Shown here: piece after piece, positions 1,878 through 59,123 of the stretch
How the letters are laid out: each line of letters begins with the position of its first letter
How positions within the stretch are numbered: the stretch's first letter is position 1
Assembly (NCBI RefSeq): GCF_026968045.1
Contig: NZ_JAPVBQ010000001.1
Coordinates: 509,238 to 573,237 of the forward strand
Direction of reading: 5' to 3'
Origin: Modestobacter sp. VKM Ac-2977
GTDB taxonomy: Bacteria > Actinomycetota > Actinomycetes > Mycobacteriales > Geodermatophilaceae
Length of the DNA: 64,000 nucleotides
Notes under the pieces: model-generated
What the model saw: the letters and a program-made list of their open reading frames with translations, nothing else
Told to the model about the DNA's origin: nothing
Database searches by the model: none
Position numbers and translations under genes: made by a program

Positions 1878-1906
1878 GTCCGCGGTGCGGATGTGACTCA
1901 GGTGGC

Positions 1907-2906: not shown

Positions 2907-2933
2907 CTTGACCGGGCCCGGCCGGGTGCCGAA
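2907..2933 (+). promoter_or_regulatory. Candidate FliA-type promoter of the flgN-flgK-flgL operon
   Basis: CTTGA (2907-2911) and GCCGAA (2928-2933) are separated by 16 bases in the divergent gap between the sigma-factor gene and flgN. The -10 matches the actinobacterial flagellar consensus I recall exactly; the -35 is one or two bases off. The predicted start is about 75 bases before the flgN ATG. Confidence 0.4.
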
Positions 2934-3015
2934 GTGGAGATCGACAGCGCCCGCCGGTCCCGGTGGGCGCCGGCCTGCACGACGGGCCGCACACGACGAC
3001 GGAAAGGCGGCCGGC

Positions 3016-4934: not shown

Positions 4935-4938
4935 CCTG

Positions 4939-5850
4939 ATGCGGATCACCCAGCGCGCACTCGCCGTCACCGCACTGCAGGGCCTCAACCGGAACCAGGA
5001 GGCCATCGCCAAGCTGCAGGCGCAGCTGACCTCCGGCAAGACGATCAACAAGCCCTCGGACGACCCGACCGGCACGAACGCCGCGATGCAGACCCGCCAG
5101 GAGCTCGCCGGCGCCGCGCAGTACGCCCGGAACATCAACGACGGGATCGGCCTGCTCGACGCAACCGACTCCGCCCTGCAGAACACCATCAAGCAGGTCC
5201 AGCGGGTGCGGGACCTGACGGTCAAGGGCCTCAACGACGGGTCGCTGTCCGAAGCGTCCCGGGTGGCCATCGCGACCGAGGTGGACGGTCTGCGGAAGAG
5301 CCTCATCGGACTGGCGAACACCACCGTGCAGGGCCGGCCGATCTTCGGTGGCCCCACCAGCGGCGCAACGGCGTACGACGTCGCCACGGGTGCGTACACC
5401 GGCTTCGGTGGGACCTCCGTGCCCGCGATGCCGGTGATCTCGATCAACCGGCAGGTGTCCGACGCGGACGCGATCCGGGTGGACCTCACGGGGCCGGAGG
5501 CCTTCGGGGACCCTGCCACCGGCGACCTGTTCACGCTCGTCGGCTCGATCGCCACCGATGTGGTGTCCGACCCGGCAGCCCTGGCGGGCCACCTCGGTGA
5601 CCTTGACGTCGCCATCGATCGGCTGCTCAAGTCAGTGGCCGACATCGGCACGCGCACGACCCGGATCGAGACGGCGCAGCAGGTGAACATGGACCTGCAG
5701 CTGTCGCTGACCAGCCGGTCGGCGGCGATCGAGAACGTCGACCTGCCGAAGACGATCATGAACCTGCAGATGCAGCAGGTCGGCTACGAGGCCGCGCTGG
5801 GGGCCACCGCGAAGGCCATCCAGCCGTCTCTGCTGGACTTCCTGCGGTGA
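4939..5850 (+). CDS. flgL: Flagellar hook-associated protein 3 (FlgL)
   Basis: Second hook-filament junction protein (303 aa), a structural relative of flagellin. The N terminus MRITQRALAVTALQGLNRNQ and the segment QLTSGKTINKPSDDPTGTN are diagnostic of FlgL. The C-terminal helix VDLPKTIMNLQMQQVGYEAA resembles the flagellin D0 helix. It starts 4 bases after flgK and completes the flgN-flgK-flgL operon. Two strong hairpins follow the stop codon. Confidence 0.96.
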   Translation: MRITQRALAVTALQGLNRNQEAIAKLQAQLTSGKTINKPSDDPTGTNAAMQTRQELAGAAQYARNINDGIGLLDATDSALQNTIKQVQRVRDLTVKGLNDGSLSEASRVAIATEVDGLRKSLIGLANTTVQGRPIFGGPTSGATAYDVATGAYTGFGGTSVPAMPVISINRQVSDADAIRVDLTGPEAFGDPATGDLFTLVGSIATDVVSDPAALAGHLGDLDVAIDRLLKSVADIGTRTTRIETAQQVNMDLQLSLTSRSAAIENVDLPKTIMNLQMQQVGYEAALGATAKAIQPSLLDFLR

Positions 5851-5857
5851 CACCGCG

Positions 5858-5886
5858 GCAGGTGGCCCTTTCCCGGGGCCACCTGC
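5858..5886 (+). terminator. Terminator hairpin after flgL
   Basis: A perfect 10-bp stem (GCAGGTGGCC with GGCCACCTGC) and a 9-base loop begin 8 bases after the flgL stop codon. There is no U-tract, as is usual for actinobacterial terminators. Confidence 0.65.
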
Positions 5887-5902
5887 CGAGAAAGCAGGTG
5901 CA

Positions 5903-5930
5903 GGGGGCGCCCACCCGGGTGGGCGCCCCC
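5903..5930. terminator. 28-base perfect palindrome after flgL
   Basis: GGGGGCGCCCACCC is followed directly by its exact complement, giving a 14-bp arm pair without spacer. It follows the flgL hairpin and precedes csrA by 60 bases. It could act as a second terminator, an mRNA-stabilising structure or a protein-binding palindrome. Confidence 0.5.
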
Positions 5931-5992
5931 AGTCCCGCCGACCGGCGGGGCGATGCCACGGACGGCCCACACGAACCCATGGAGGGGTACCC

Positions 5993-6241
5993 ATGCTCAC
6001 TCTCACCCGCAGCGTCGGCGAGAGCATCCGGATCGGCGAGGACATCGAGGTCTACGTCGTCGAGGTCCGCGGCGGCACCGTGCGGCTGGGCTTCAAGGCC
6101 CCCCGCGAGGTGACGATCCACCGCGAAGAGGTCTACAAGCAGATCGCCGAGGCCCAGAGCCTGGCCGCCGAGGTCGCTGCGGACGCGCTGGGTGCCTTGT
6201 CGGCATTTGCGCCAGGTCCGGATCGGCCGACTGGCAAGTAG
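5993..6241 (+). CDS. csrA: Carbon storage regulator CsrA
   Basis: Homodimeric RNA-binding protein (82 aa) that represses translation by binding GGA motifs at ribosome-binding sites. The family core is complete: MLTLTRSVGESIRIGEDIEV, then VRLGFKAPREVTIHREEVY, including the conserved RLGFKAP and the Arg of the RNA-binding edge strand. A non-conserved tail of about 20 residues follows. GAGGGG precedes the ATG. In Gram-positive flagellar loci CsrA controls flagellin translation and is antagonised by FliW. No fliW is visible here; it may lie beyond the left edge. Confidence 0.95.
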   Translation: MLTLTRSVGESIRIGEDIEVYVVEVRGGTVRLGFKAPREVTIHREEVYKQIAEAQSLAAEVAADALGALSAFAPGPDRPTGK

Positions 6242-31739: not shown

Positions 31740-32977
31740 CCGTCGGCTCCCGGCTCCGGTCCGCCGTCCTCCCCGCCTGGCGCGAGGAGGGCAGCGCGCC
31801 GGTGTCCGAGGCGGGGTGGCGGGCCACCGTGCTGGCGTGGCACGTTGCCGTCGCCGCCATGCTGGGGACGGCGCTGGTGCGAGCGGTCGCCGTCGTCGAC
31901 GCGGACGGCGGGCCGCGCGCCCTGCTCGTCGGTGCGTTGACCTCCTGGGCCGCGGCGTACGCGCTGCTGGGTGCCCCGGCTCTCGTCAGCCGGCACGGAC
32001 GGCGAGCGAACGCCTACCTCGCGGTCATGGTCGCGGCGATCGGCGTCGTCGGCTGGGTCGAGCCCTCGCTGCTCTTCCTGATGTTCCTGGCCTACCCGCA
32101 GGTCTGGTTCCTCGCGGAGTCCGTCGCGGCCGGTGTGCGGTGGACGGTCGCGGCGGCGGCGGCGAGCACGGCCGGACCCCTGCTCGCCTGGACCCGCGGT
32201 GACGAGCCGCTGTGGGGTCCCGGGCAGACGCTGGTGGGGCTGGCCTTCAGCCTCGCCATGGGGCTGTGGGTGAACGGGCTGCTGGCCAAGAGCGGGCAGC
32301 GGGCTGCGTTGATCGAGGAGCTGGAGTCGACCCGCGCCGAGTTGGCCGCCGCGCACCGCGAGCAGGGCGTCGCGGCGGAGCGGGAGCGCTGGGCCCGCGA
32401 GGTGCACGACACCCTGGCGCAGGGCTACACGAGCATCGTCGTCCTGGCCCAGACCGCCGCGGCCCAGCTGCCCGGCGACCCTGGTGCGGCCGCGGAGCGG
32501 GTGGCGCTGATCGAGGAGGTCGCCCGGGAGAACCTGGCCGAGGCCCGGGCGATGGTCGCCGCTTTCGCGCCGGTGGCGCTGGACTCCTCGACGTTGCGGG
32601 AGGCGCTGGAACGGCTCGCCGAGCGGTTCGGCCGGGAGACCGGCCTGCCCACCCGGCTGGACACTGCTGCGCTGGCGGACGACGCCGGCCTGACCCGGGC
32701 GGAGGAGATCGTGCTGCTGCGCGGAGCGCAGGAGGCGCTGGCCAACGTCCGTCGGCACGCCGCGGCCAGCGCGGTGGTGCTGCGGATCGGGGTGGGGGAG
32801 GCGGGGCAGGTGTCGGTGCACGTCTCCGACGACGGGGTGGGCTTCGACCCGGAGGCTGCGGCCGGCGTCGGGCTGGCCGGGCTGCGGGACCGGGCCGAGC
32901 AGGTGGGCGGCGCGGTCGACGTGGTCTCGGCCCCGGGGGAGGGCACCCGGGTCACGGTGCAGGTGCCGGCGCGATGA
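31736..32977 (+). CDS. NarL-type sensor histidine kinase
   Basis: A 413-aa kinase. The first ~190 residues hold four to six membrane helices without a large external domain, as in intramembrane-sensing kinases. Then come the HisKA_3 dimerisation box with the phospho-acceptor His (RERWAREVHDTLAQGYTSIV) and an HATPase_c domain (EALANVRRHAAASAVVLRIG, VSDDGVGFDP, GLAGLRDRAEQVGG). It overlaps the permease stop by ATGA and the regulator start by ATGA, so the kinase probably senses or is controlled by the linked exporter. Confidence 0.94.
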   Translation: MTVGSRLRSAVLPAWREEGSAPVSEAGWRATVLAWHVAVAAMLGTALVRAVAVVDADGGPRALLVGALTSWAAAYALLGAPALVSRHGRRANAYLAVMVAAIGVVGWVEPSLLFLMFLAYPQVWFLAESVAAGVRWTVAAAAASTAGPLLAWTRGDEPLWGPGQTLVGLAFSLAMGLWVNGLLAKSGQRAALIEELESTRAELAAAHREQGVAAERERWAREVHDTLAQGYTSIVVLAQTAAAQLPGDPGAAAERVALIEEVARENLAEARAMVAAFAPVALDSSTLREALERLAERFGRETGLPTRLDTAALADDAGLTRAEEIVLLRGAQEALANVRRHAAASAVVLRIGVGEAGQVSVHVSDDGVGFDPEAAAGVGLAGLRDRAEQVGGAVDVVSAPGEGTRVTVQVPAR

Positions 32978-36504: not shown

Positions 36505-37614
36505 TTAGAGGCGTCCAGTCCGCACAGAGTCCGCAGGATCGTCGAGTGCTGCGGACATCAGGCCGTCCGTGGCGGCCCGGGTGCGGTCGTCCGCGTCGGG
36601 CCACAGGTGTCCGTAGGTGTTCAGCGTCGTGGTCGCCGAGGCGTGCCCGAGGGCGCGCTGGACGGTGACCACGTCGCAGCCGGAGGCGATGAGGCCGGAG
36701 GCGAAGAAGTGCCGGAGGTCGTGCAACCGCAAGCCGGTCAGCCCGGCCGCGGAGAGCGCCTTCCGCCACTGGTGGCCGACGGTGTTCTGGTGCGGCGGCG
36801 TGCCGGTCGGGGTGGGGAAGAGCCAGCGGTCCGGGCCGCCGGCGGTCAGGTGCCGCTCGACGTGCCCGGCGATGAGGGTGAGCAGCCGGTCGGGGACGAC
36901 CACCGTCCGTTCCGAGCCGTGCTTGGGTGCCCGCAGCTCGGCGGTGCCGTTAGGTCCGCGCTGCACCTGGCGGCTGACGACCACCCGGCGGCGGAGGAAG
37001 TCGACGTCGCCGACCTGCAGCGCGGCCGCCTCGCCGAGCCTGAGGCCGCCGAACGCGCAGACGGCGATGAAGGCGGCGAACCGCTCGTCGGCGGAAGCGA
37101 GCAGGACGCCGACCTGGCGCGGCGTGGGGATGCTCATGGCGTGCTCGCGGCGCCGACGGCGGGGGAGCGTCACCCCGTCGCTGGGATCGGTGGCGATCAC
37201 CCGGTCCCGGACGGCGCCGCGCAGGACGGCGCGCACGTTCTGCACCCGGGTGTGGATGGTGCCCGGGGCCAGGCCAGCCGCGGTCATCTGCTTCACCCAG
37301 TACTCAACGTGCGAGCGGCGGAGCAGTCGCAGCTCGACATCGGTGAAGGTCGCGGACCGGACGGCGAGGCTCATCGCCAGCTCGGTGCCCGGCGCCCACA
37401 CCTGGCGAGCGGCCCAGGTGGCGTAGAACGCCGAGAGGGTCACGCGGCCGGCCTTCGGGTCGACGTACGTGCCGGTGACGACGGAGGCGGTGACCTCGTC
37501 GAGCCAGCGCTGAGCATCCACCTTCCGCTTGAAGTGCCGGGCGTGCTCCTTGCCGTCGGCATCGCGGTACCGCGGGCGGTACGTGCCGTCGGGTCGCCGC
37601 GCGATGCTCGCCAT
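36505..37614 (-). CDS. int: Tyrosine-family site-specific integrase
   Basis: A 369-aa recombinase. Residues ~1-55 are an AP2-like arm-binding domain (YRPRYRDADGKEHARHFKRK). Residues ~58-145 are the core-binding SAM-like domain. The catalytic domain has Arg192 in GGLRLGEA, a candidate Lys231, His298/Arg301 in LHDLRHFFAS, His324 in ALGHASATTT and the nucleophile Tyr334 in NTYGH. The gene is intact. GAGGAGAG precedes ATG 37614. It ends 28 bases from the left core repeat and two AGTCCGCA arm-like repeats lie within its 3' end. It should integrate and, with the adjacent HTH protein, excise the element at ychF. Confidence 0.95.
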   Translation of the reverse strand: MASIARRPDGTYRPRYRDADGKEHARHFKRKVDAQRWLDEVTASVVTGTYVDPKAGRVTLSAFYATWAARQVWAPGTELAMSLAVRSATFTDVELRLLRRSHVEYWVKQMTAAGLAPGTIHTRVQNVRAVLRGAVRDRVIATDPSDGVTLPRRRRREHAMSIPTPRQVGVLLASADERFAAFIAVCAFGGLRLGEAAALQVGDVDFLRRRVVVSRQVQRGPNGTAELRAPKHGSERTVVVPDRLLTLIAGHVERHLTAGGPDRWLFPTPTGTPPHQNTVGHQWRKALSAAGLTGLRLHDLRHFFASGLIASGCDVVTVQRALGHASATTTLNTYGHLWPDADDRTRAATDGLMSAALDDPADSVRTGRL

Positions 37615-37704
37615 GTCTCTCCTCGGCTGGTCAGGCCCTGCTCGGAGGTCAGCCTGCCGGGAGCGGCCGCCGCTGTGCGATGGCCGAGCCGCCGATCTGT
37701 GGAC

Positions 37705-37902
37705 TCACCGGCTGCCTCCGTTGAGCTGCCCGGTGACCTTGGCCTGCCACCAGCGATCGCACTCGGTCTCCTCGTAGAGGACGCGGCGGCCGACGCGGAC
37801 GCCTTCCGGCCCGATCCCGATGTGCCGCCAGTAGCGGACCGTGGCGGGGCTGGTGCGGAACCGAGCCGCCACCTCCTCCGTGGTCAGCAGTCGAACGGTC
37901 AT
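37705..37902 (-). CDS. Excisionase-like MerR-type HTH protein
   Basis: A 65-aa DNA-binding protein with one winged HTH: LLTTEEVAARFRTSPATVRY and WRHIGIGPEGVRVGRRVLYE. This is the short form used as excisionase or directionality factor by actinobacterial integrative elements. GGGAGA precedes the ATG. It lies 90 bases upstream of the integrase start on the same strand, as expected for xis-int. Confidence 0.85.
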   Translation of the reverse strand: MTVRLLTTEEVAARFRTSPATVRYWRHIGIGPEGVRVGRRVLYEETECDRWWQAKVTGQLNGGSR

Positions 37903-38047
37903 CGAGGTCTCCCGGTTGTGGACGGCGGCTGCTGGGGGCTGCAGCTGGCTACACGGAGGAGGCGCCGACCAGCCTCGATCGCTGCCAGTCAGCACCGACC
38001 GGACATGTCACCCCGTTGTCACCCCAGACGCGCCGGCGGTGATGACC

Positions 38048-38539
38048 TCAGCTGCGGTAGGGGCGACGACGGAATGCCGCGATGACCTCGTCGACTGCAC
38101 GGGCGACCGCGGGCAGCTCCCGGTCGTACAAGAGCCCGCGGTCGATCTGCCCGGCTAGTTCGCGCAGCACGTCGGCCCACTCACCGTGCCGTGGCGCTCT
38201 CGGCTGCGCTGGAGGAGCTGGGGTGACGACGATGCGCTCGACGACTTCCACCGCGGACCGGCCCGATCCCGCGGCTCGTGTCTGCTCCCAGGCGCGATGC
38301 CGGCAGGTGGTCGAGCACCACTTGGGGATTGGACCTCGGGACCGCGGGGTTATCGGGCCGTGGCACCAGCCACAGGTGGTCGCTGCCGCACGCCTCGCCC
38401 GGCCGTCCGTAGAGGGCTGCGCCGAGTTCTTGGCCGCCGGTGGATCTCGTCGCACGGCCGCTCGCTCCTGTGCCGCTCGGCGCCGACGCTTTCCCTCCCG
38501 AGGCCGAGCCCGGTACTCGGGGGATCCCTTGCTGCTCAT
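38048..38539 (-). CDS. Zinc-ribbon protein of unknown function
   Basis: A 163-aa basic protein. Residues ~1-55 are Arg/Lys/Ala-rich. A zinc ribbon follows: CGWCHGPI with PKWCSTTCRHRAWEQ (CxxC and CxxxC), a form often seen in actinobacterial phages and integrative elements. The last 45 residues (WADVLRELAGQIDRGLLYDR) are helical. The start ATG 38539 gives MSSKGSPEYRARPREG. It may bind DNA or RNA of the element. It belongs to the left, int-proximal part. Confidence 0.75.
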   Translation of the reverse strand: MSSKGSPEYRARPREGKRRRRAAQERAAVRRDPPAAKNSAQPSTDGRARRAAATTCGWCHGPITPRSRGPIPKWCSTTCRHRAWEQTRAAGSGRSAVEVVERIVVTPAPPAQPRAPRHGEWADVLRELAGQIDRGLLYDRELPAVARAVDEVIAAFRRRPYRS

Positions 38540-39082
38540 GCCCCCAGCGTCTGGAGGAACGTGCATCAACACGTCACCACGAGTTCTCGGACCGACGGTG
38601 CAAGAGGTGTGTCGGACATGATCTTGCTTGTTCAGGGTGCCGCCTGATCGGGGTGACTGACCGATGGGTGTCCTTCGGGGTGAACACTTTCAAGGGCGCC
38701 TGCTCATGTTGAGGCCGACGCGCGTATCGGTTCGGTGCCGATCCGGGTCTCGTGCCCGGCAGCTGTTCTGGACCTGCGGTCGCCTGCGGGCTGCCTCGCT
38801 CCTATCGGGTTGGCGCCGCTACGGATTGCCGGCTTCACCCCGGCGGCCGGTCACCGCCGGTCGTCTCCTTCAGCGCGGCCGGTCGGCCTGGCTCGCCGCC
38901 GGCGGCGAGCCTCGGGCATGCCGCCCCGCCGTGGCGACGGTCGAACAACATAACGTCCTTTATGTTGTATCCGCGCAGTTCGCCTTTAGGCAGGGCGGTA
39001 GCGGTGTGTGCTCAAGGGAGCGAAGCAGCGAGTCACCTTGACCCCCAGTCACCCGCCTGAGCGTCATCGGTCGTTAGCGGGA
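38540..39082. other. Non-coding stretch holding a palindromic site
   Basis: These 543 bases hold no gene I can support; short plus-strand frames here lack conserved sequence and start signals. The notable feature is the palindromic site at 38945-38968. The end contains TCGTTAGCGGGATCAGTCGG, vaguely like the inverse of the intergenic repeats further right. Confidence 0.5.
38945..38968. repeat. Palindromic recombination-like site, copy 1
   Basis: Nine-base arms ACAACATAA and TTATGTTGT flank the 6-base centre CGTCCT. The central 14 bases (ATAACGTCCTTTAT) recur exactly at 40324-40337 in the same orientation. Arms with a short asymmetric centre resemble core sites of tyrosine recombinases. Confidence 0.55.
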
Positions 39083-39697
39083 TCAGTCGGTCGTTGGCGT
39101 GGGCAGGCCCAACTGCTGCCGCAACTTCCGGTGCTCGACGGCTGCGTCGGCCACGATGCCCTCGGGCCAGACGTGTTCTTGGTTGCTGTAAGTGATGTAG
39201 TTGCTCGGACTTGCCATTGTTTGCACGTTCAGGGGAAAGCTCCCCAGCTTCACCCAAGTTTGCCGGTGGTCTACCTGTGCTTCGACCGTCGCAGTTACTG
39301 GATGTCCGTGGAGTAGTGGCACGGGCGATGTGTTCATGGCGAACTCCACCATTCGTGTATCAACGGAGCGCCCAGTCACGCTGTAGGCGTGTGCAAAGTC
39401 CTCGACATCGTCGGCGTCAGTACGCAATGACCGGCGCAAGGTTCTGAAGTGCATGAGCGCTTCGTCGCCAACTTCTGACGCCAGGCGGAGTCGAAGGTCC
39501 GTTACGACGAGCGGTACGGCACCACTATTGAAGATGCTCAGTGGGATGCGCAGCGCCGCCTTGTTTCGATAGAGGTATCCCGAGAAGTTCTGCACCGGGT
39601 AGCAGGTGAGGTGTCCGCGGCGTGCTTGCAACCACCAGAAAGAAGTAGTGGTGAACAGTAGAGCGCAAGTTGAGATGATGATCGAAGCGAGCGCCAT
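39083..39697 (-). CDS. Membrane-anchored protein of unknown function
   Basis: A 204-aa protein with an N-terminal membrane helix (LASIIISTCALLFTTTSFWW) followed by a mostly beta domain with conserved-looking PLVVTDLRLRLASEVGDEAL and a His/Val-rich end. The start ATG 39697 has GGGAAG nine bases upstream; an ATG six codons earlier has a poorer site. Base composition is clearly less GC-rich than the flanking chromosome, indicating recent acquisition. No family is recognised. Together with the Rid gene it is bracketed by the two palindromic sites. Confidence 0.75.
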   Translation of the reverse strand: MALASIIISTCALLFTTTSFWWLQARRGHLTCYPVQNFSGYLYRNKAALRIPLSIFNSGAVPLVVTDLRLRLASEVGDEALMHFRTLRRSLRTDADDVEDFAHAYSVTGRSVDTRMVEFAMNTSPVPLLHGHPVTATVEAQVDHRQTWVKLGSFPLNVQTMASPSNYITYSNQEHVWPEGIVADAAVEHRKLRQQLGLPTPTTD

Positions 39698-39894
39698 GCG
39701 ATCAGCTTCCCGCATTCATTCTTCGATGTCCAGGTAGCTTTCCGGCGCCGACAATCGTGAGAGTTGCTGAGCTAATACGACGGATCAGATATTCCGTCGC
39801 GGTAGATCAGGCCCGGCTCTGATCCCGCCTTCGCACCCGGCAGGAGGGTCACCTCGGCCAGGCTGCCGGCTGACCAGCAGGGCAGGTGGACCTG

Positions 39895-40296
39895 CTACTC
39901 GACCAACGCGATTGCGTCGATCTCCACGAGCTGGTTCGCGTAGCCGAGGGCGGCGACACCGAGCAGAGTGCTCGGGGGCTCGTTTTCGGCGAAGGTGGCA
40001 TGGGTGACGTCCCAGGCGGCGACCAGGTCGGACTGGCGTGAGGACGCCACATAGATCGTCGTGCGCACCACCGTCGAGTAGCTTGCGCCGGCCTCCTCAA
40101 GCGCTGTCTGGAGGTTGGCTAACGCTCGCCTTGTCTGGGCCGCGACGTCTCCCACCTCGACGACCGCGCCAGTGAGGTCGATCGGGCACGCTCCGGCGCA
40201 GAAGACGATCTGAGTGTGGGCCGGGAGGACGGCGGCGTAGGCGTACTCGGCGACGGACGACAGCTTGGCCGTGCGGACGAAGCGAGCCTCCGGCAT
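39895..40296 (-). CDS. Rid (YjgF/YER057c/UK114) family protein
   Basis: A 133-aa homotrimer-forming protein. RidA proper hydrolyses reactive 2-aminoacrylate. Family segments are AGACPIDLTGAVVEVGDVAA, QTRRALANLQTALEEAGASY and VEIDAIALVE. The Arg that binds the substrate carboxylate in RidA (PARS motif) is replaced: the sequence is PPSTLLGV. The protein is therefore more likely one of the non-archetypal Rid subgroups with another substrate. AGGG precedes the ATG. It lies on a mobile element between two palindromic sites. Confidence 0.88.
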   Translation of the reverse strand: MPEARFVRTAKLSSVAEYAYAAVLPAHTQIVFCAGACPIDLTGAVVEVGDVAAQTRRALANLQTALEEAGASYSTVVRTTIYVASSRQSDLVAAWDVTHATFAENEPPSTLLGVAALGYANQLVEIDAIALVE

Positions 40297-40321
40297 GAGT
40301 CGACCCTAGCGACCGACCCGC

Positions 40322-40339
40322 AGATAACGTCCTTTATCT
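40322..40339. repeat. Palindromic recombination-like site, copy 2
   Basis: Arms AGATAA and TTATCT flank the centre CGTCCT, the same centre and inner arms as the site at 38945-38968. It sits 26 bases upstream of the Rid gene start and overlaps the stop codon of the DinB-family gene. Confidence 0.55.
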
Positions 40340-40910
40340 AACGGTCGCTGGCAGCCGTCCGTGCTGCGGCTTCGATGCGCAACCGGTGTGCCGCCCAGTC
40401 GTCGTCGGCCGTCTCCAGGTTGCTGGCGGCCACCTCGTCCAGCTGTTCGCGCAGGATGTCTGCATGACCGGCATGTCGGGTCGTTTCCGTCAGGACGTGC
40501 ACCATCACGTTGAACAGCTGGACGTCTGGCTGCGGCCACCAGGGCACGAAACCGGTCGCGTTGATCGGTAGGGCTTCGATCGTGACGTCGGCATGAGCGC
40601 ATGCCCGCCGGTAGCCGTCGAGGACGTCGCCGCGCGACTCCCGTTCGGTGACCCAGAGGGTGTCGCGGTTCGAGTAGTGCGGATCGCTGAAGTTCGGGAT
40701 CGGCTCGGGGTACGGCCGCCCGAAGATGTCACCGAGGTAGCGCGCTTCAGACAGGGTCAAGTGCTTGATCAAGCCGAGCACGTTGGTGCCCGTCCTCGTA
40801 AGGGGACGACGAACGTCGTACTCGGTGAGACCGTCGACCTTGCTGAGAATTGAATTGCGCACCGAACGCAGGTCGTCATGGAGGTACGTCTTCGCATCGT
40901 CGTCGTCCAC
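40338..40910 (-). CDS. DinB-superfamily protein
   Basis: A 190-aa four-helix protein of the DinB/DUF664 superfamily, whose members are metal-dependent thiol transferases or hydrolases of unknown substrate. Recognisable are DGLTEYDVRRPLTRTGTNVL, GLIKHLTLSEARYLGDIFGR (first metal His) and VHVLTETTRHAGHADILREQ (the HxxxH-type second and third ligands), with WAAHRLRIEAAART at the end. The start GTG 40910 has no Shine-Dalgarno and was chosen because the family begins there. The stop lies inside palindromic copy 2, so the present 3' end may have been shaped by recombination. Confidence 0.8.
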   Translation of the reverse strand: MDDDDAKTYLHDDLRSVRNSILSKVDGLTEYDVRRPLTRTGTNVLGLIKHLTLSEARYLGDIFGRPYPEPIPNFSDPHYSNRDTLWVTERESRGDVLDGYRRACAHADVTIEALPINATGFVPWWPQPDVQLFNVMVHVLTETTRHAGHADILREQLDEVAASNLETADDDWAAHRLRIEAAARTAASDR

Positions 40911-40962
40911 AGGCCGAGCATGGCACCGACGGTTCCGTGGGGACCCGCTTGTCCTGGTCAAC

Positions 40963-41870
40963 TCAGGTGTTCGGGGCAGCCAGCAAGGCTGTGACGTGCT
41001 CGTCGACGAGGCAACCGCAAGGTCGGGCGATTGCGACGATGACCGGCTCACGTTGCCCGCGGACGCGGGCGTACTGCTCCTCTACGCCGGTGGTCGGGCA
41101 AGTGCAGCTCGGGCAGCCAGGTGAGTGGCCGGCCGGCCAGTCGAGTGCCTCCAGCTCTTCCCCGCCGCGGCGCCCCGTCCGCCCCAGCAACTGGATCGCC
41201 GGGAGCACTGTCAGGTCCGCGGACGAGACGGGCGCCGGCTCGGCCGCTTGGGCCGCTGGCTCTGGCAGCTCCAGGACGGTCTGCTCAGCATGGGTGCCGG
41301 CCCCCACCGGGTCGGTTGGGGTGGCAGGCGCTTGCGCCAGTGCGCGCACCAGGGAACTGCGGCCAACACCCGAAGTGGCCGCAATCTGGATCAGCGTCAT
41401 GCCCCGGGCGCGCATCGCCTGCGCGGCGGTGAGCCGCTCGGAGGTCATGACGGTGGGGCGTCCGCCGGCCCGGCCGCGGGCTCGGGCGGCGACGAGACCG
41501 GCGCGGGTGCGTTCGCTGATCAGGCGTCGTTCCATCTGCGCGACGGCGGCGAAGATGTGGAAGACGAGTTCCCCGCCGACGGTGGTGGTGTCGATGGCTT
41601 CGGTCAGGGACCGGAACTGGATTCCGCGGGCACCGAGGTCGTTGACGATGGTGGTGAGGTCGGCGACCGAGCGGCCGAGCCGGTCGATCCGCCACACCGC
41701 CAGGGTGTCTCCGGGGCGTAGGAAGTCCAGGCAGGCGATTAGCTGTGGGCGGGCGGCGGTGGCGCCGGAGGCGTAGTCGGTGAACACCCGCACCGCCCGG
41801 CGGCGGTCAGCGCGTCATGTTGCAGCGCCGGGTCCTGCTCGAGGGTGGACACCCGGGCGTAGCCGACCAT
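40963..41870 (-). pseudogene. Serine recombinase (resolvase/invertase), frameshifted
   Basis: The N terminus, from ATG 41870, reads MVGYARVSTLEQDPALQHDA and contains the catalytic Ser of the resolvase family. About 25 codons in, the frame shifts: the original frame stops within about 20 codons, while the rest of the protein continues in another frame from about 41793 (RVFTDYASGATAARPQLIAC, RIDRLGRSVADLTTIVNDLG, IFAAVAQMERRLISERTRAG). It has a recombinase HTH (RGMTLIQIAATSGVGRSSLV) and a Cys-containing C-terminal extension of about 110 residues (GCPSCTCP). Without frameshifting the protein has no nucleophile. A sequencing error or programmed frameshift cannot be excluded. As it stands it is inactive. 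Confidence 0.8.
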
Positions 41871-42223
41871 GTTCACGCGCGCAGGTTAGCGGGAGCGGCC
41901 CACAAACGTCAGGGGTCGCCGGATTCGGTCCGTTGATTTCGGGCACGGGTTTTGGGCCGGTTGACTCATCGGCTGGCCTGCGGAAACGCCCGACGGGTTA
42001 AGGGGTGCGCGAAGAGGCCCAGAAACGGGTGGTTGTGAGCCGCGGTTTCGGAACCCCTTTCTGGTCACGCAGAGCGACACGGCCGATTTCTGCTAGTCGC
42101 TCCTCGTTCTCTCGGCAGGGGCCCTCGCCACCGACATGCCCCTTCTGTCGGAGCCGCTGGACACCGTGCATAGAGGCTGTCGTCCGGGTGTAACGCAGGA
42201 GTGGCATCCGGCCATGAGGGGGT
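41871..42223. other. Non-coding stretch with repeat and promoter of the ECF sigma gene
   Basis: These 353 bases separate the recombinase remnant from the sigma gene. The region holds the first 83-bp repeat (42024-42106) and presumably the sigma-gene promoter in its last 100 bases. No coding sequence is supported. Confidence 0.6.
42024..42106 (+). repeat. 83-bp direct repeat, left copy
   Basis: It begins AACGGGTGGTTGTGAGCCGC and matches 43875-43957 at 79 of 83 positions in the same orientation. The two copies bracket exactly the ECF sigma and partner genes. Confidence 0.9.
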
Positions 42224-42775
42224 GTGAGCGAGATGGGGCAGGCGGAGGAGCGGTTCAGCGCGGTCTATGCCGCGCACTACGGCCGCGTGCTCGCGTTCTG
42301 TCTGCGGCGGGCCGTGCCGGACGCTGCTCGGGACGCTGCGGCGGAGACGTTCCTCGTTGCCTGGCGGCGCCTCGATGACCTGCCTGCTGAACCGCTTCCG
42401 TACCTGATGAAGACAGCTGGCTTCGTGCTCCGCGACCAGAGCCGATCGAGCCGCCGCCAGGACCGGGTGGCTGCGCGCATCTCAGACACCCCGTCTCCTG
42501 CGATGCCTGATCACGGGGAGGCGGTTGCAGCCTCGGTCGACGTGGAGCGGGTGCTGCAGCGGCTCAGCCCCTCGGATCGGGAACTGCTGATGCTCAGCGC
42601 CTGGGACGACCTCGACGCCGCAGCGATCGGTGCGGTCGTGGGCTGCTCGACGGCCACGGCACGGGTGCGGCTGCACCGTGCGCGCCGACGCTTCGCCCAT
42701 CAACTTCAGCAGCTCACCGGGGCCCTCGACGTCCAGGTCCCTGCATCCAGTCGAACCACGAGGGAGACAGCGTGA
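42224..42775 (+). CDS. ECF-type RNA polymerase sigma factor
   Basis: A 183-aa sigma factor with region 2 (AVYAAHYGRVLAFCLRRAVP, ETFLVAWRRLDDLPAEPLPY, FVLRDQSRSSRRQ) and region 4 (LQRLSPSDRELLMLSAWDDL, AIGAVVGCSTATARVRLHRA). It starts at GTG 42224 or ATG 42233; GAGGGGG lies just upstream and spacing favours the ATG. Its stop overlaps the GTG of the membrane-bound partner gene (GTGA). The pair forms a complete sigma/regulator module, flanked by 83-bp direct repeats within the mobile element. Confidence 0.92.
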   Translation: MSEMGQAEERFSAVYAAHYGRVLAFCLRRAVPDAARDAAAETFLVAWRRLDDLPAEPLPYLMKTAGFVLRDQSRSSRRQDRVAARISDTPSPAMPDHGEAVAASVDVERVLQRLSPSDRELLMLSAWDDLDAAAIGAVVGCSTATARVRLHRARRRFAHQLQQLTGALDVQVPASSRTTRETA

Positions 42776-43815
42776 ACCAGCAGCGGTACGCCGATCAGGT
42801 GCTGCGCGCGGCCGATCCCGCCGCTGGTGACACCCCTGAGCTCGACGACCGGGCGAGGACGGACCTGGCGCGTATCCTGGCCACCCCGCGCCAGACCCCG
42901 ACCGCCGCCCCAGTGGGTCACCGCCGCCGTGGCCTGCACATCAGCATCCCGCGCCCGCGGCTGACCTTCACGGTCCTGGCAGCTGCCGTGCTGGCCGTGG
43001 TGGCAATCGCGCTGACGACTGTCCTCCCCAGTGGCGGTGGACGAGGCGCCTACGCCGCGACCCCCGCTGAGCTCACGGTCCTCGACACGTCGGCATTTGC
43101 AGCTGCTGGGATGGACCCGACCGCGACGGCCCCGCAGCTGCTGGAGACCATCGCCGAGCGGGCGGCGGCGCTACCGGACGACACCAGTGCCGGCCGGTAC
43201 GCGCGCATCCGCACCGAAAGCTGGGACCTCTTCACCCAGGTGGACGGGGAACAGGTCACCAGCGAGGTGGTCCCCCAGGCGACGACAACGTGGACTGCAG
43301 CAGATGGCAGCGGCCAGACCATCCGCTCTTACCTCTGGCCAGACGGCGACACCGATACCGAGACGACCGAATGGCCGGCCGGACGGACCTTGGCGTGGCC
43401 ACTCGGCTCGCTGTCCAGCGACCCCGATGTCCTCGCGCAGCAGCTCGAGGAGGCACACCCGGTGGCGAACGGCCCGGCCGAGCGGCTGGTCGCCGTCCAA
43501 GACCTGTACCGGGAGCAGCCGCTGACCCCGCAGGTCCGCGCCGCGGTGCTCCGGTACCTGGCTGCCACGCCGGGGCTGGAGGTGACCGGCATGGTGCTGG
43601 ACCGAGCCGGGCGCACCGGCCTGGCCATCCACCTGGACAACGACCTGGGTGGGCTGCCCAACCGCGAGACGATGGTCATCGATCCTGCCGACGGCAGGGT
43701 GTTGGCCGCGGAGACCCGGCTCACCGAGACCGCCGGCGCGCTGAACGTCCGGGTCCCAGCGGTGATCAGCTACGAGAGCTACCTCGAAGCGTCCTACGTG
43801 AACGACGTCAACTAA
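42772..43815 (+). CDS. CU044_5270-type membrane partner of the ECF sigma
   Basis: A 347-aa single-pass membrane protein. The cytoplasmic N terminus (~60 residues: YADQVLRAADPAAGDTPELD) would be the sigma-binding part. The helix FTVLAAAVLAVVAIALTTVL spans residues ~65-84. The external domain (VLRYLAATPGLEVTGMVLDR, AIHLDNDLGGLPNRETMVID) matches the CU044_5270 family that accompanies such sigma factors in actinobacteria. The likely role is an anti-sigma or signal-sensing regulator, from family context. It has no zinc-binding anti-sigma motif. Confidence 0.85.
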   Translation: MNQQRYADQVLRAADPAAGDTPELDDRARTDLARILATPRQTPTAAPVGHRRRGLHISIPRPRLTFTVLAAAVLAVVAIALTTVLPSGGGRGAYAATPAELTVLDTSAFAAAGMDPTATAPQLLETIAERAAALPDDTSAGRYARIRTESWDLFTQVDGEQVTSEVVPQATTTWTAADGSGQTIRSYLWPDGDTDTETTEWPAGRTLAWPLGSLSSDPDVLAQQLEEAHPVANGPAERLVAVQDLYREQPLTPQVRAAVLRYLAATPGLEVTGMVLDRAGRTGLAIHLDNDLGGLPNRETMVIDPADGRVLAAETRLTETAGALNVRVPAVISYESYLEASYVNDVN

Positions 43816-43840
43816 AAGCTGTTGGGCATCGGTGCTCGGC

Positions 43841-43894
43841 GGCCCGAAAACCGTCGGGTTTCGGTCAGTCCGCTAACGGGTGGTTGTGAGCCGC
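43841..43894 (+). repeat. Intergenic repeat, copy A
   Basis: A 54-base unit starting GGCCCGAAAACCGTCGGG and ending GGTTGTGAGCCGC. It matches copy C (44835-44888) at 47 of 54 positions and partly matches copy B. The right part merges into the second 83-bp repeat. Confidence 0.75.
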
Positions 43895-43957
43895 GGTTTC
43901 GGAACCCCTTTCTGGTCACACAGAGCGACACGGCCGTTTTCCGCTAGTCGCTCTTCG
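43875..43957 (+). repeat. 83-bp direct repeat, right copy
   Basis: The second copy of the repeat at 42024-42106, with four substitutions and no gap. It starts 60 bases after the stop codon of the sigma partner gene. Confidence 0.9.
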
Positions 43958-43964
43958 CTTCCCC

Positions 43965-44010
43965 GGCCCGAGACGATCGGATAGTGGTCAGTCCGCTCAC
44001 GGGTGTTTGT
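43965..44010 (+). repeat. Intergenic repeat, copy B (diverged)
   Basis: It reads GGCCCGAGACGATCGGATAG then TGGTCAGTCCGCTCACGGGT, a degenerate version of copies A and C, directly after the 83-bp repeat and before the next gene's 3' end. Confidence 0.6.
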
Positions 44011-44075
44011 GGTCGGGTCCTTCGATCAGGACGTACGCCTAGCGTCCAATCGCTAGAGAACGGGGCTGGCGCCGG

Positions 44076-44741
44076 TCAACGTCGCAGGCTGGACTCGAAC
44101 GCCCGCCGCAGGATCAGCTCCCCCGTGGTCGGATCGGCGGCTGCCGGGTCCGAGCACACCACGGCTCCCGGTGCCAAGAGGTGCCACCAGCTGCCTTTGA
44201 CCTCCAGTACGACGGCGCTGGCTCGCACCGCCCCGAAGTCCACCCGCCGGTCGAAGGCGACGTCCTCGGCGACTTGACGGACCAGCCGGTACGGGAAGCT
44301 GCCTTTCCGTTCGTCGCGCTGTTCGAGCGAGAGCTGATTCACCCAGCGGTGCGCGTGCGGAAAAGTTTCGACCGCGGCCCGCTGCAGCGCTGGACGGTCA
44401 GCGAGGGCAGCGAAATCCGGCGGCGACCCGGCCTGCTCGCGCCGCGCTTGCAGCGTCTCCCGTACCGCCGACATGCCCGGGTCCGCAGGCTCCTCCTGCA
44501 TCTGCACTTGGAAGCCGAGCACGGTCGCCCACCAATCGGTCCACTGCTGCCCCGCCTCCTTGCGCTCCTCGGTAGAGAGCAGACCGCGGTGGTCCGGGAT
44601 CGTGCCGGAAAGCGGCGGCGGCACCGCTGGCCCTGGCAGCACCGGCAACCCAAGGGCGTCACGGATGAACAGGGCGACGTGCGACATTTCGTCGCGGTCA
44701 GATTCGGCGAACCGCCACGACGTTGTTCCGGCGAACTTCAC
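44076..44741 (-). CDS. Protein of unknown function on the mobile element
   Basis: A 221-aa soluble protein starting MKFAGTTSWRFAESDRDE from GTG 44741, with GGGAGG eight bases upstream. It has a Trp-rich centre (QQWTDWWATVLGFQVQMQ), a helix LADRPALQRAAVETFPHAHR and a C-terminal strand region VRASAVVLEVKGSWWHLLAP. No signal peptide, membrane helix or known catalytic motif is present. I do not recognise the family. It is flanked by intergenic repeats B and C. Confidence 0.7.
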   Translation of the reverse strand: MKFAGTTSWRFAESDRDEMSHVALFIRDALGLPVLPGPAVPPPLSGTIPDHRGLLSTEERKEAGQQWTDWWATVLGFQVQMQEEPADPGMSAVRETLQARREQAGSPPDFAALADRPALQRAAVETFPHAHRWVNQLSLEQRDERKGSFPYRLVRQVAEDVAFDRRVDFGAVRASAVVLEVKGSWWHLLAPGAVVCSDPAAADPTTGELILRRAFESSLRR

Positions 44742-44834
44742 AACCTGCCTCCCTTAGACGTGGACACGCTCTCGCAACGCACCGCCGCCGTCTAGCGGAC
44801 GCGCAGCGCGGCCTCAGCCCCGCCAGGGCTCGCC

Positions 44835-44888
44835 GGCCCGAAGACGGTCGGGTAGCGGTCAGTCCGGTAACGGGCGGTTGTAAGCCGC
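44835..44888 (+). repeat. Intergenic repeat, copy C
   Basis: A 54-base unit starting GGCCCGAAGACGGTCGGG, containing GGTCAGTCCGGTAACGGG and ending GGTTGTAAGCCGC. A short further copy of the central part (GGTCAGTCCGGTTTGCGGG) follows at 44923-44941. Confidence 0.75.
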
Positions 44889-44997
44889 TTGGGATCCCGT
44901 AGACGAGGAGGGATCTGGCACTGGTCAGTCCGGTTTGCGGGCATCCTCGCTCTTCCCCTTGGTCGTGGCGGAGCGTTGCAAGTGTCAAGATCGCCGC

Positions 44998-45621
44998 ATG
45001 GAGGTCTTGGGCACGGTCACCGCGGGGCTGGCGGGTGCATGTGTGGATGAGCGGGGGCGCCTGATCGAGCATTTCCTGCTCGACTACGCCAGCCGTGCAG
45101 CTCGGATCGTTGATCTCGTGCGGTTGGGGAAGCTCGACAACGACAGCGACGCCATCCATGTCGATGCAGGTCCGGTCGGTTGGGCGCCGCTGGACGACGC
45201 TGCACGAGCACTGGCCGAGCAGCCGATGACTCTGGACTCGTGGATCGTCAGTGGGTCCTCGGGCCAGCTTGCTGTGGTCGAGGACCTTGTAAGCACTGGT
45301 GTTTGGAGTCAAGAAGTGACTCCCGTACGTCGCCAGCGCCGGTATGAGACTGGTCGGCCGCGTGATCAGTGGGGTCGGACTGCCGAACGCCGCCTCATCC
45401 GTCCACTAGCGCCCGAGCCGGCCTCGGAACGAGATGCGGCGGTCACCCTTCTGGCCAGCGCGGCTGGCTTGGGCGACGGGGACCATGACGCGGACACGCT
45501 CCTCGTACGCACGGGGGTGGCGCGCTGGGTCTGCGAGCTGGCGTGGCAGATGATCAGCCAGGAGCGGGCGAAAAACTTGGACGCTTTCGGGACCATGCGG
45601 GCTGGAAAGATCACGGGCTGA
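44998..45621 (+). CDS. GPP34 (GOLPH3-like) family protein
   Basis: A 207-aa protein resembling the GPP34 family, known in eukaryotes as the phosphoinositide-binding GOLPH3/Vps74 and common but uncharacterised in actinobacteria. Typical are the N-terminal helices RLIEHFLLDYASRAARIVDL, the beta segment VRLGKLDNDSDAIHVDAGPV with PLDDAARALAEQP, and SSGQLAVVEDLVSTGVW. The end VARWVCELAWQMISQERAKN is more divergent. No Shine-Dalgarno is seen. Bacterial members may bind membranes or affect polyamine/antibiotic regulation; the role here is unknown. It lies between intergenic repeats. Confidence 0.7.
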   Translation: MEVLGTVTAGLAGACVDERGRLIEHFLLDYASRAARIVDLVRLGKLDNDSDAIHVDAGPVGWAPLDDAARALAEQPMTLDSWIVSGSSGQLAVVEDLVSTGVWSQEVTPVRRQRRYETGRPRDQWGRTAERRLIRPLAPEPASERDAAVTLLASAAGLGDGDHDADTLLVRTGVARWVCELAWQMISQERAKNLDAFGTMRAGKITG

Positions 45622-46003
45622 CTTCCCGGCACATGGTTGCTTCAGGCGGCACAAACGCTCGGCTGATCGGGCGCCTTGCTTCGCCTGTCTGCTGGGGACG
45701 TGACCGCGTCGACCGAGCATCCGTTCGCACCGGCGGGCCTCTTCGACCCGAAAGGTGTGGGTATCGGGCCGCTCATTAACGGGCAATTCCGGACAGCGCC
45801 ACCCTGAGTGCCGAGGGTGTCCTAAGCCGCCCTTCGGACGTGTCCCTGAGCGGCTCACTCAGGGACACGTCCACGAGACTCGCGCTGGGTAGCGCTCGAT
45901 CGGCGCAACCCGTAGAACCTCGACGGCCTGATCGACCGAGGGTCCGCCACGGCCGAGCCGGAGCGTCACCTCGTCGAGGAGCTGTCGTCGGCGGTCCCCG
46001 CTC
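45622..46003. other. Non-coding stretch with repeat remnant and hairpin
   Basis: These 382 bases separate the GPP34 gene and the next minus-strand gene. They hold a degenerate copy of the intergenic repeat (about 45747-45790: CCCGAAAGG, GGTATCGGGCCGCTCATTAACGGG in two parts) and the strong hairpin at 45837-45871. No gene is supported. Confidence 0.55.
45837..45871. terminator. 14-bp hairpin between convergent cargo genes
   Basis: A perfect 14-bp stem (GACGTGTCCCTGAG with its complement) and 7-base loop lie between the convergent GPP34 and downstream unknown gene. A terminator is most likely. Confidence 0.6.
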
Positions 46004-46597
46004 TCACCAGTAGTGCGGCTGGTCTTCGCCGGGATCCGCCAGAACCACGTCGAGGTCGATGGCGGCCAGGAGCTCGTCGATCGCGGTGCGGTCGGCACCA
46101 ATACCCGCCCAGTGCGGGTCGACGTCCGCCGTGACGCACCATGCACGGTCCGCCGGCCAAACGAAGGCAGGATGGAGCGGGAACTGGTGCGGCTGATCGG
46201 GCCATCCTCCGGCAGCGCCCGTCAGGTCGGCGGCCACACCGCGCAGCAGGACGTAATCGCGGTTCGGCACGCGCACCCGTGGTGCATGCCACACGGATGA
46301 TGGAAACGCCTGTGGGCCCCAACCGTCCCAGTAGGCGACGTACCAGTCGTCGGGCGTGGTCGTGTAGCTCGCCAACACCTTCAACACGGTGGCCAGCTGG
46401 GCCTGATCCGACGGGTGATTGTCGTCGACCCCGGCGTCGTTCTCCGCCTGTCGGGCGTACACCGGGTCAGGGATGAACCGCAGCCGGGCGTACGCCGTGA
46501 AGCCGGCGGGACCAAACGTGACGAGCTGCCACCACGACACCCGGCTGGTGGTGAGCCAGTCCGCCGCTGAGAGGTCAGTGCACAAGGTCAGCGCCAC
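46004..46597 (-). CDS. Protein of unknown function, last cargo gene
   Basis: A 197-aa soluble, acidic, Trp-rich protein starting VALTLCTDLSAADWLTTSRV. Conserved-looking motifs are TFGPAGFTAYARLRFIPDP, WYVAYWDGWGPQAFPSS and CVTADVDPHWAGIG. Related uncharacterised proteins are frequent in actinobacteria. GTG 46597 was chosen as start because conserved-looking sequence begins there; the ribosome site is weak. It is the last gene before the right end of the element. Confidence 0.65.
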   Translation of the reverse strand: MALTLCTDLSAADWLTTSRVSWWQLVTFGPAGFTAYARLRFIPDPVYARQAENDAGVDDNHPSDQAQLATVLKVLASYTTTPDDWYVAYWDGWGPQAFPSSVWHAPRVRVPNRDYVLLRGVAADLTGAAGGWPDQPHQFPLHPAFVWPADRAWCVTADVDPHWAGIGADRTAIDELLAAIDLDVVLADPGEDQPHYW

Positions 46598-47140
46598 GTG
46601 CCCATGGTCTCGCCTCGGCTGGCCGTCTGCCCCCGGCTCGGTCAGGACTCGCCCAGCGGGGCTGGACGATCCGGCTGGACCGGCCAGTTGGCCCATCCAC
46701 GCAGGTGGCGCCTTACCGTTGTCGCAACATCGGCAGGCCCGTCGAGCTTCGCGCCCTGAAGCGCCGATAACGCCTCGTTCTGTCGGCTTCGCATCGACGC
46801 GTTCTCCTCTAGAGCGAGGGGAGTTGTGCTCGGTTGTGCCGTGCGCCGAGCTGCCTGTCGCGGGCCCCCGGCCGGCGGTGGTGCGCGGTCTGGTGTCGGC
46901 CGGGTGATGTCGGGCCGAGCTTTGGAGCGGACGCAGTCGTGGGTCTACCCCGGTCCGGTCGGCCGGCCGGCGAGCCGCCTCCCTGGGGTTCGAAGGCTTG
47001 GCATTCAGTCCGCAAGAAGTCCGCAGAAGTCCGCAAAACGGTCGTTCTCACCCAGCCGGACCCAACATCACCCAATAGCAAAAGCCCAGGTCGGACGCGT
47101 CTATCATCGAACATCGTCGACGTCCGAACACCCCGTCGAC
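46598..47140. other. Right end of the element, non-coding
   Basis: No gene is supported in these 543 bases. Three direct AGTCCGCA repeats (47007, 47018, 47028) lie about 105-135 bases from the right core repeat. The same octamer occurs twice near the left end, so this looks like attachment-site arm sequence. Confidence 0.5.
47007..47035 (+). repeat. Arm-type repeats near the right end (3 x AGTCCGCA)
   Basis: Octamers AGTCCGCA at 47007-47014, 47018-47025 and 47028-47035, spaced 10-11 bases (one helical turn). Two copies at 36517-36524 and 36528-36535 near the left end have the same spacing and orientation. These are probable binding sites for the integrase N-terminal domain or excisionase. 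Confidence 0.55.
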
Positions 47141-58231: not shown

Positions 58232-58392
58232 GTGCACGGCGGGGCGGGCAGCCGCTCCTCGCTGGAGGCGCCGCCTGGTGCGCGGAGCGCACAGCGCGGC
58301 TCATGACGCGATGCCCGACCTGCTCACGATGCCCCGGGGTTGCCCCGGGGTGATCGGCGGTTGCCGATCGTCCTGCCCGCCCCGTCGTACAC
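58232..58392 (-). ncRNA. Candidate retron msr-msd RNA with a1/a2 repeats
   Basis: On the minus strand, GTGTACGACGGGGCGGGC (58392-58375, a1) can pair with GCCCGCCCCGCCGTGCAC (58249-58232, a2): 16 Watson-Crick pairs, one G-U and one mismatch. Between them are a 7-bp hairpin (GATCGGC/GCCGATC, loop AACC), a CCCCGGGG/CCCCGGGG hairpin with a 3-base CAA loop, and a longer msd-like hairpin at 58270-58300 (5 bp, 3x3 internal loop, 6 bp, loop TCC). The end of a2 is 13 bases from the reverse transcriptase start. This is the layout of retron ncRNAs. The branching G and exact ends are not determined. Confidence 0.65.
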
Positions 58393-58502
58393 CCGGCCAC
58401 CGTAGTGGTGTGCGGACCGCCGCCGGAGTCAGGTGCGGGACAGCCGGCCGCGGGATGCACCAGGATGGGCCCCCGTCGTCCCCGACCCCCTGGAGTGCCG
58501 CC

Positions 58503-59123
58503 GTGACCTCTTCGCCCTCCGGCCAGCCGCCGGCCCCGATGGCCGTGCCGGCCTTCTTCGTCTCGCAGCGGGTCACCATGATGGTCAACCGCTACGAGAT
58601 CCGGGCCGCTGCCCCCGACGGCTCCGAGGGGCAGTTGCTGGCGCTGGCCGAGCAGAAGCGGATGAAGCTGAAGGAGGAGGTGGTCTTCTTCGCCGACGAG
58701 ACGAAGAGCCGCGCGGTCTTCTCCTTCAAGGCCCGCCAGCGGATGGACGTCTCGGCCCAGCACGACGTCTTCGACGAGCACGGTGCACCGCTGGGCATGT
58801 TCAGCAAGCAGTTCGGGGCCAGCCTGCTCCGCTCGACGTGGAACCTGGAGGTGCCGGGGCTCTCCGCCCGGGGGCAGGAGCGCCGCCCGGCGATCGCCGT
58901 CCTGCGCCGGGTCTGGGACCTGGTCCCCATCGTCGGTGACGTACCGGTGCCCTTCGTCTTCCACTTCGACTTCGTCGACACCGCGACCGGCGCCCCGGTG
59001 CTCACCAGCGAGCGGAAGAAGTCCGTCCGCGACCGCTACACCGTCACGGTGCCGGACCCGCGGCTGGACTTCCGGGTCGCCGCCGCGATGGCCGTCGCCC
59101 TGGACGCGCTGCAGAGCCGCTGA
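58503..59123 (+). CDS. LURP-one/scramblase-like protein
   Basis: A 206-aa protein predicted to form the twelve-stranded barrel of the LURP-one/Tubby-like family: FFVSQRVTMMVNRYEIRAA, ALAEQKRMKLKEEVVFFADE, VFSFKARQRMDVSAQHDVFD, GMFSKQFGASLLRSTWNLEV and a final VPDPRLDFRVAAAMAVALDA helix. Bacterial members are uncharacterised; related folds bind membranes or lipids. The GTG start 58503 has GGAG eight bases upstream. It is divergent from the reverse transcriptase; its promoter must lie beside the candidate retron RNA. Confidence 0.8.
   Translation: MTSSPSGQPPAPMAVPAFFVSQRVTMMVNRYEIRAAAPDGSEGQLLALAEQKRMKLKEEVVFFADETKSRAVFSFKARQRMDVSAQHDVFDEHGAPLGMFSKQFGASLLRSTWNLEVPGLSARGQERRPAIAVLRRVWDLVPIVGDVPVPFVFHFDFVDTATGAPVLTSERKKSVRDRYTVTVPDPRLDFRVAAAMAVALDALQSR

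Follow-up and report, generated by a model that had tools for sequence, protein, structure and literature searches.

The msd region of a retron RNA is folded as one long hairpin of about 10-50 bp. According to the accessible part of PMC6868368, the msr region is composed of one to three hairpins of about 7-10 bp with loops of 3-10 nt, and vertical inheritance is reported there for Mx162 and Sa163. As stated in the available portion of PMC8867640, the retrons whose function has been demonstrated protect against phage; for some others, it is noted there, an effector is not evident in the neighbourhood and the role is an open question. Models of msr-msd RNAs are included in PADLOC, as documented in the accessible sections of PMC9252829.

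Among the solved structures, Ec86 (Eco1) is the best counterpart, by sequence and by fold, of the reverse transcriptase (RT) presented here. Ec86 possesses an effector, as given in the title of 7v9x, and its RT, which measures 320-330 residues in most entries, is devoid of the N-terminal extension found in the present enzyme. An RT with an N-terminal extension, as here, is known from type XIII, Mx162 and Mx65.

The present locus belongs to Modestobacter sp. VKM Ac-2977, an actinobacterium as the earlier note on this DNA had deduced, whose assembly comprises 4.31 Mb in 16 contigs; the window, to which all coordinates refer, is the whole stretch of 64,000 nucleotides that was analysed. The note had read the region upstream of an RT gene as the RNA template of a retron, a reading now supported by covariation and by the retron type of the RT. 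The locus is very probably a genuine chromosomal two-part retron, by anatomy and by evolution, in which a structured msr-msd RNA is followed by its cognate RT (Table 1). The fold of the RNA, its covariation, its close association with the RT family and the selection on the RT were demonstrated by computation. The RNA had also been called undescribed-looking, which held for Rfam, no match to which was obtained in the window at gathering scores, but not for the RT, whose family is already covered by PADLOC models under untyped names. In the literature searched, which was accessible in part and to which the key classification papers do not belong, no description of the RNA of this clade or of a Geodermatophilaceae retron was found. 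The comparison of the locus with described families covered Rfam and the PADLOC RT models.

Table 1. Features of the retron locus in window coordinates, and loci with a recurrent downstream gene
Feature	Position or loci	Strand	Basis or remark
Retron ncRNA (msr-msd), predicted 161 nt	58232..58392	minus	Fold, covariation, one full match in the genome
Putative -10 promoter element TACGGT	58399..58404	minus	Six bases before the a1 arm
a1 arm with CAG at its end; proposed priming guanosine G58373	58373..58392	minus	Alignment pairing
msr hairpin 1, GATCGGC-AACC-GCCGATC, 7 bp, AACC loop	58369-58352	minus	Fold, alignment
msr hairpin 2, CCCCGGGG-CAA-CCCCGGGG, 8 bp, CAA loop	58350-58332	minus	Recurrent hairpin of the clade
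Predicted template of the msd, up to about 80 nt	58252..58331	minus	Bounded by hairpin 2 and the a2 arm
msd hairpin GCCGC..GCGGC, apex TGCGC-TCC-GCGCA, bulged, about 13 bp	58300-58270	minus	Fold, alignment
a2 arm	58232..58251	minus	Alignment pairing
Retron RT, 449 aa, ATG start, N-terminal five-helix extension (about residues 1-90)	58218-56869	minus
Pentapeptide-repeat gene directly after RT	L082, L085, L091, L098, L099, L107, L128, L188-L192, L196		Amycolatopsis, Kutzneria, Crossiella, f15

The reverse transcriptase

The assignment of the same-strand gene to the retron-type RTs, proposed in the earlier note, was borne out by the PADLOC models and by the best matches in the PDB. The model RT_other (PDLC02949) gave 541.7 bits and RT_outgroup (PDLC03740, described as 'retron') 509.2 bits, both over nearly the whole length of the RT, and RT_XIII came third with 286.1 bits, a score at which membership of type XIII was rejected. 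The first two models represent the same RT family, and their labels carry no retron type. The same order, RT_other best and RT_outgroup second, was obtained, again over nearly the full length, for seven relatives from Actinomycetota, Myxococcota and Burkholderiaceae. The top PDB matches by sequence were retron RTs with Ec86 first (E 1.8e-26), and Ec86 was likewise the best fold match (E 5.8e-18) of an AlphaFold2 model with a pLDDT of 86.6. The search against Pfam yielded RVT_1 and no further domain, and the best NCBIfam model, retron_St85_RT, scored 158 bits, below its cut-off of 235. Regarding the motifs, YVDD is present, and LGxVVN is found where more distant relatives carry TGxVVN.

The fold of the N-terminal domain (pLDDT 78) found no convincing match in the PDB, the best E value being 3.4. 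No match to this domain was detected in 17 of the 80 named loci, including most of those in Pseudonocardiaceae; at five loci whose RT gives no such match (L082, L084, L085, L091 and L107), the ncRNA stands directly before the RT core. As judged from dN/dS values of 0.16-0.37 in 12 chosen pairs, the RT is under purifying selection.

The relationship to the myxobacterial retrons could be assessed within one Myxococcus genome, which harbors an RT of the clade (448 aa) together with RTs of 485, 426 and 472 aa, these three being best matched by RT_XIII. The 485-aa enzyme is taken by us to be a relative of Mx162, and the 426-aa enzyme is close in length to the RT of Mx65, for which coordinates in the available part of PMC8934634 give 427 aa. 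At the three RT_XIII-type enzymes, no same-strand upstream RNA was found by the covariance model described below. Membership of the Mx162/Mx65 group was rejected on these grounds, since the fit of the three enzymes to RT_XIII and the lack of an RNA match beside them imply that this clade and those myxobacterial retrons are separate.

The noncoding RNA

The candidate ncRNA precedes the RT gene on the same strand, and its end is separated from the ATG by 13 nt (58231-58219), the distance that had been counted before. Its closing repeat, also as previously read, consists of the arms 58392-58375 and 58249-58232, which form 16 Watson-Crick pairs and one G-U pair (T58389/G58235) with a single A-C mismatch (A58385/C58239). 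The stem extends inward by two further pairs (A58374-T58250 and G58373-C58251), giving 20 positions instead of 18. Among 18-nt inverted repeats whose arms are separated by at least 60 nt, the closing repeat is the top-scoring one of the intergenic stretch (284 nt); its score, 16.5 of 18, was equalled by one of 500 dinucleotide shuffles and by one of 500 stretches of 284 nt taken at random from the window. The region 58420-58219 folds at -128 kcal/mol compared with a shuffled mean of -103.7 (z -4.9; 0/200 shuffles as low). These repeat and fold statistics alone are suggestive, and the comparative data decide.

The three enclosed hairpins were recovered by folding as the note had described them, two with AACC and CAA loops and the third one bulged. 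An upstream ncRNA closed by a1/a2 inverted repeats is present, and its msr hairpins, of 7 bp and 8 bp, lie within the range given for retrons. At the inner end of a1 lies an nAGn motif, which reads CAG in 33 of the 34 family sequences and CGG in one; its C and G are paired in all 34 and its A in 33, with one G-U. An A-G doublet recurs at this position in the wider set (CAGG, GAGA, CAGC, AAGC). The motif resembles the retron priming motif of PMC6868368, but CAGG is absent from the tetranucleotides listed in the accessible part of that paper. Judged from its position, G58373 may serve as the priming guanosine. The TACGGT element ahead of a1 is a putative promoter, in which TA and the last T are invariant in 34/34 family sequences and TA..T is frequent in the wider set.

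A second copy of the RNA or a chromosomal decoy was considered and rejected, as the genome itself gave one full match and otherwise short ones with E values of 0.007 or worse. The 13-nt msd apex recurs once elsewhere in the window (32718-32730), where the chance expectation for at most one mismatch is 0.70.

Conservation and covariation

The check suggested in the earlier note, namely covariation upstream of homologous RT genes, was carried out at two depths and disclosed double changes at 9 of 41 pairs in the family and at 34 of 41 phylum-wide. The lack of conservation or of compensatory substitutions that would have spoken against the retron reading was thus not observed. The family alignment, built by sequence alone, contains 34 Geodermatophilaceae sequences out of 36 nhmmer matches, L037 and L052 being excluded as partial. 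Its 41-pair consensus holds in 97.8% of 1391 cells, and sliding the partner by one to three columns lowers the paired cells to 38.7-49.3%. Both sides change at 9 pairs in 42 cells, compared with shuffled means of 5.2 and 14.9, and 0/500 shuffles are as high. The number of pair types is less decisive, being reached by 44/500 shuffles, whereas the other four measures were reached by none. In the msd hairpin, one pair is swapped from G-C to A-U in 11 of the 34 sequences.

A covariance model trained on these 34 sequences was applied to 1.52 Mb of sequence, made up of the window and 99 further loci, which afforded 95 matches at E up to 1. A match beside the RT, on the RT strand, was found at 90 of the 99 loci, 85 by an automatic test and five added; the latter, from Amycolatopsis and Kutzneria with short RTs, had failed only because the test assumes a full N-terminus. 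As the genomes of L065 and L066 very probably contributed to the training, the count becomes 88 of 97 untrained loci, which span several phyla and in which L063 and L071 are one sequence. No intact match was returned at the remaining nine (L052, L046, L094, L111, L121, L126, L132, L134 and L140); in the case of L111, the RT stands at the contig end. Three matches occupy other positions, at L112, L103 and L088, the last being antisense to its own element. Many of the distant matches are weak singly, such as that of Myxococcus L092 (20.6 bits, E 0.5), and their placement beside the RT is therefore the main support. Across whole family genomes, the model gave exactly one match each in 35 of 108, all 35 of which also have an RT match. 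In some loci the ncRNA overlaps the start region of the RT. At L052 (3570-3908), a decayed copy is seen, in which a partial ncRNA adjoins only the last fifth of an RT.

The phylum-wide alignment comprises 49 matches from 48 chosen loci of the 99, with 48 distinct rows fitted to the model, and includes one spurious short row (L103, minus strand) that was kept in the pair counts. Since its rows were found by the model and fitted to it, the proportion of paired cells (94.3% of 1855) and the hairpin frequency lean towards the model. Double changes occur in 454 cells compared with a shuffled mean of 120.8, and all five covariation measures were reached by 0/500 shuffles. Hairpin 1 shows double changes at all six modelled pairs. 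Hairpin 2 is paired in 99.5% of cells across the 48 distinct rows with compensatory variants, and the hairpin CUCCGGGGnnACCCCGGGG recurs; the double changes of hairpin 2 are visible by eye, as the prevailing CTCCGGGGnnACCCCGGGG is accompanied by variants including CTCTGGGGCTACCCCAGGG, CTCAGGGGCAACCCCTGGG, CTCGAGGGCAACCCTCGGG, CTACGGGGCTACCCCGTGG and TCTCTGAGGTTACCTCAGGGG. Three of the four outer pairs of the msd hairpin vary on both sides, and its apex is the weakest part with 83% of cells paired.

Distribution and inheritance

An RT match was detected in 16 of 23 genomes of the genus (E up to 1e-40), all 16 being among its 18 good-quality genomes, and in 48/112 genomes of the family, 68/298 of the order and 13/345 of the class (E up to 1e-30). 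In several genomes (G017, G020, G065, G070 and others) the copy is split or incomplete, which indicates that the RT is dispensable. At E up to 1e-20, matches were present in 0/50,697 phage records and 8/72,556 plasmids, four of the latter being replicons of 0.9-2.8 Mb.

The neighbourhood was compared at 13 loci out of the 16 RT-bearing Modestobacter genomes with 12 neighbours tested, and luciferase-like and NlpC-type neighbours turned out to be common to 12 of the 13 loci. None of the 12 tested neighbours was shared with G008 or with eight loci of other genera. In G008, of the same genus (L156 / L014), the RT occupies another chromosomal place. An RT tree of 117 of the 118 loci, from which the frame-broken L066 is missing, requires 13 changes of phylum label compared with 36.6 after shuffling (0/200 as low). 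The RT history is not purely vertical, in that the RT of G008 is sister to the RTs of genus g3 and two distinct RT lineages occur within the family; from its chromosomal place and the tree, the RT of G008 was probably acquired by transfer.

Divergent from the retron, a 206-aa gene at 58503-59123 is LURP-one-like by eye and gave no Pfam or PADLOC match. Such a gene adjoins the RT in some Modestobacter and lies on its other side in others. In Modestobacter sp. VKM Ac-2985 (L066), roughly 3-4 kb of extra genes separate the ncRNA from its LURP-like neighbour, and the reading frame of the RT is disrupted.

Neighbouring genes and the search for an effector

For the clustering of neighbours, 929 genes of at least 70 aa were predicted by a simple gene caller within 5 kb of 99 RTs, and none of the neighbours recurred across the clade, so that a linked or fused effector was not found at these 99 loci. 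Of the 99 gene clusters, 19 extend over more than one genus and have two or more loci near the RT; most of these are common families (luciferase-like, ABC, MFS). The other cross-genus clusters reflect shared Pseudonocardiaceae neighbourhoods, with a DnaE-like gene upstream and a pentapeptide-repeat gene downstream; the former, named by eye, precedes the RT in six Pseudonocardiaceae loci of three genera. The pentapeptide-repeat gene, identified with Pfam, follows the RT on the same strand in 13 of the 32 loci checked (7/12 named and 6/20 others), and those of known family all belong to Pseudonocardiaceae or f15. The gene caller read this gene antisense at L082, L085 and L091. At three loci (L085, L105, L192), a Usp gene comes immediately downstream of the RT.

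Given its closeness behind the RT, the pentapeptide-repeat gene is a possible local partner in Pseudonocardiaceae, and its co-transcription with the RT is possible. As a dedicated effector it was rejected, being common in genomes without the RT: the family occurs in 195/298 genomes of the order versus 68 with the RT, many of them without it, and it therefore looks like a resident neighbour rather than a dedicated effector. The genome of the window has a member of the family on another contig.

Proposed mechanism and alternatives

In the proposed scheme, the transcript would start at or next to a1, and hairpin 2, which is strongly conserved, would be the chief element by which the RT recognises the RNA. 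Where the a1/a2 stem ends on its inner side, the 2'-OH of G58373 would then prime reverse transcription of the msd, beginning near 58252 and running in the direction of hairpin 2, and the presumed msDNA would be a branched RNA-DNA with at most about 80 nt of DNA. Production of msDNA by this retron is thus predicted from its sequence. The output is the least certain step: because no dedicated effector is linked, the RT-msDNA complex may act via the N-terminal helical domain of the RT or via an unlinked host protein, and the former idea is weakened by the 17 of 80 loci where that domain finds no match. Against the reading as a genuine retron stand the short msd stem with its weak apex, the unlisted CAGG and the dispensability of the RT.

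For the cellular role, both an unlinked defence and a non-defence host role are live. The best-surviving rival concerns the output only and holds that the element is an ordinary anti-phage retron, the effector of which is unlinked or was lost in most lineages, so that phage would be sensed and a toxin encoded elsewhere released. We regard this as a serious option at somewhat below an even chance. It agrees with the action of the retrons of shown function (PMC8867640, as far as accessible), and the patchy presence in family and order (48/112 and 68/298 genomes) together with the decay resembles a dispensable defence gene; however, no dedicated neighbour gene was found at 99 loci, the RT was met in no phage record and eight plasmids, the neighbourhood is common to 12 of 13 Modestobacter loci, and the GC3 of 0.97 is host-like. 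A broader and more doubtful proposal, which we advance tentatively, places the locus in a clade of retrons that is spread across the bacteria and whose members mostly stand alone, near but outside type XIII, with the strongly conserved CUCCGGGGnnACCCCGGGG msr hairpin, an N-terminal five-helix RT extension in most members and a largely vertical, chromosomal inheritance; their host job would be other than the toxin-release defence of the typed retrons.

The RNA might instead be a cis-acting leader of the RT mRNA, either an attenuator or an RT-binding autoregulatory element, and no template, as its position directly upstream of the RT and its overlap with the start region in some loci would allow. 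Such a leader would need no closing stem, whereas the RNA is closed by an a1/a2 stem that carries nAGn on its inner side, its short msr hairpins and the third hairpin are arranged as in a retron, and the RT is of retron type, which renders this explanation very improbable. An origin of the repeat and hairpins by chance, in an intergenic region rich in GC, is refuted by the comparative data and deserves negligible weight, for although GC-rich shuffles come near (mean 14.0, maximum 17 of 18) and 44/500 attained the pair-type count of the family, the other four family measures and all five of the wide set were attained by 0/500, and the RNA recurs beside the RT across phyla.

Returning to the retron reading, the clade provides a clean test of the retrons without a clear effector nearby, as a single RNA fold with a common hairpin goes together with a single RT, and a dedicated partner gene is missing; it also offers an alignable phylum-wide set, as well as close relatives for comparison in which the retron was naturally lost or is broken. 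If msDNA is made, retrons native to high-GC actinobacteria would be added, which would be useful for editing there.

Other features of the window

The stretch 36505-46700 carries, as named by eye, tyrosine-integrase-like (36505-37614), excisionase-like HTH and serine-recombinase-like (40963-41793) genes. Most of its genes have a GC3 of 0.70-0.86 versus about 0.95 around, and it is probably an integrated mobile element. The RT as mobile-element cargo was rejected in view of its scarcity on phages and plasmids and of its GC3 of 0.97 versus 0.70-0.86 for most genes of this nearby integrase-bearing stretch. At 609-6241, flagellin-like, FlgL-like and CsrA-like genes were named by eye, which fits the motile host that the earlier note had envisaged.
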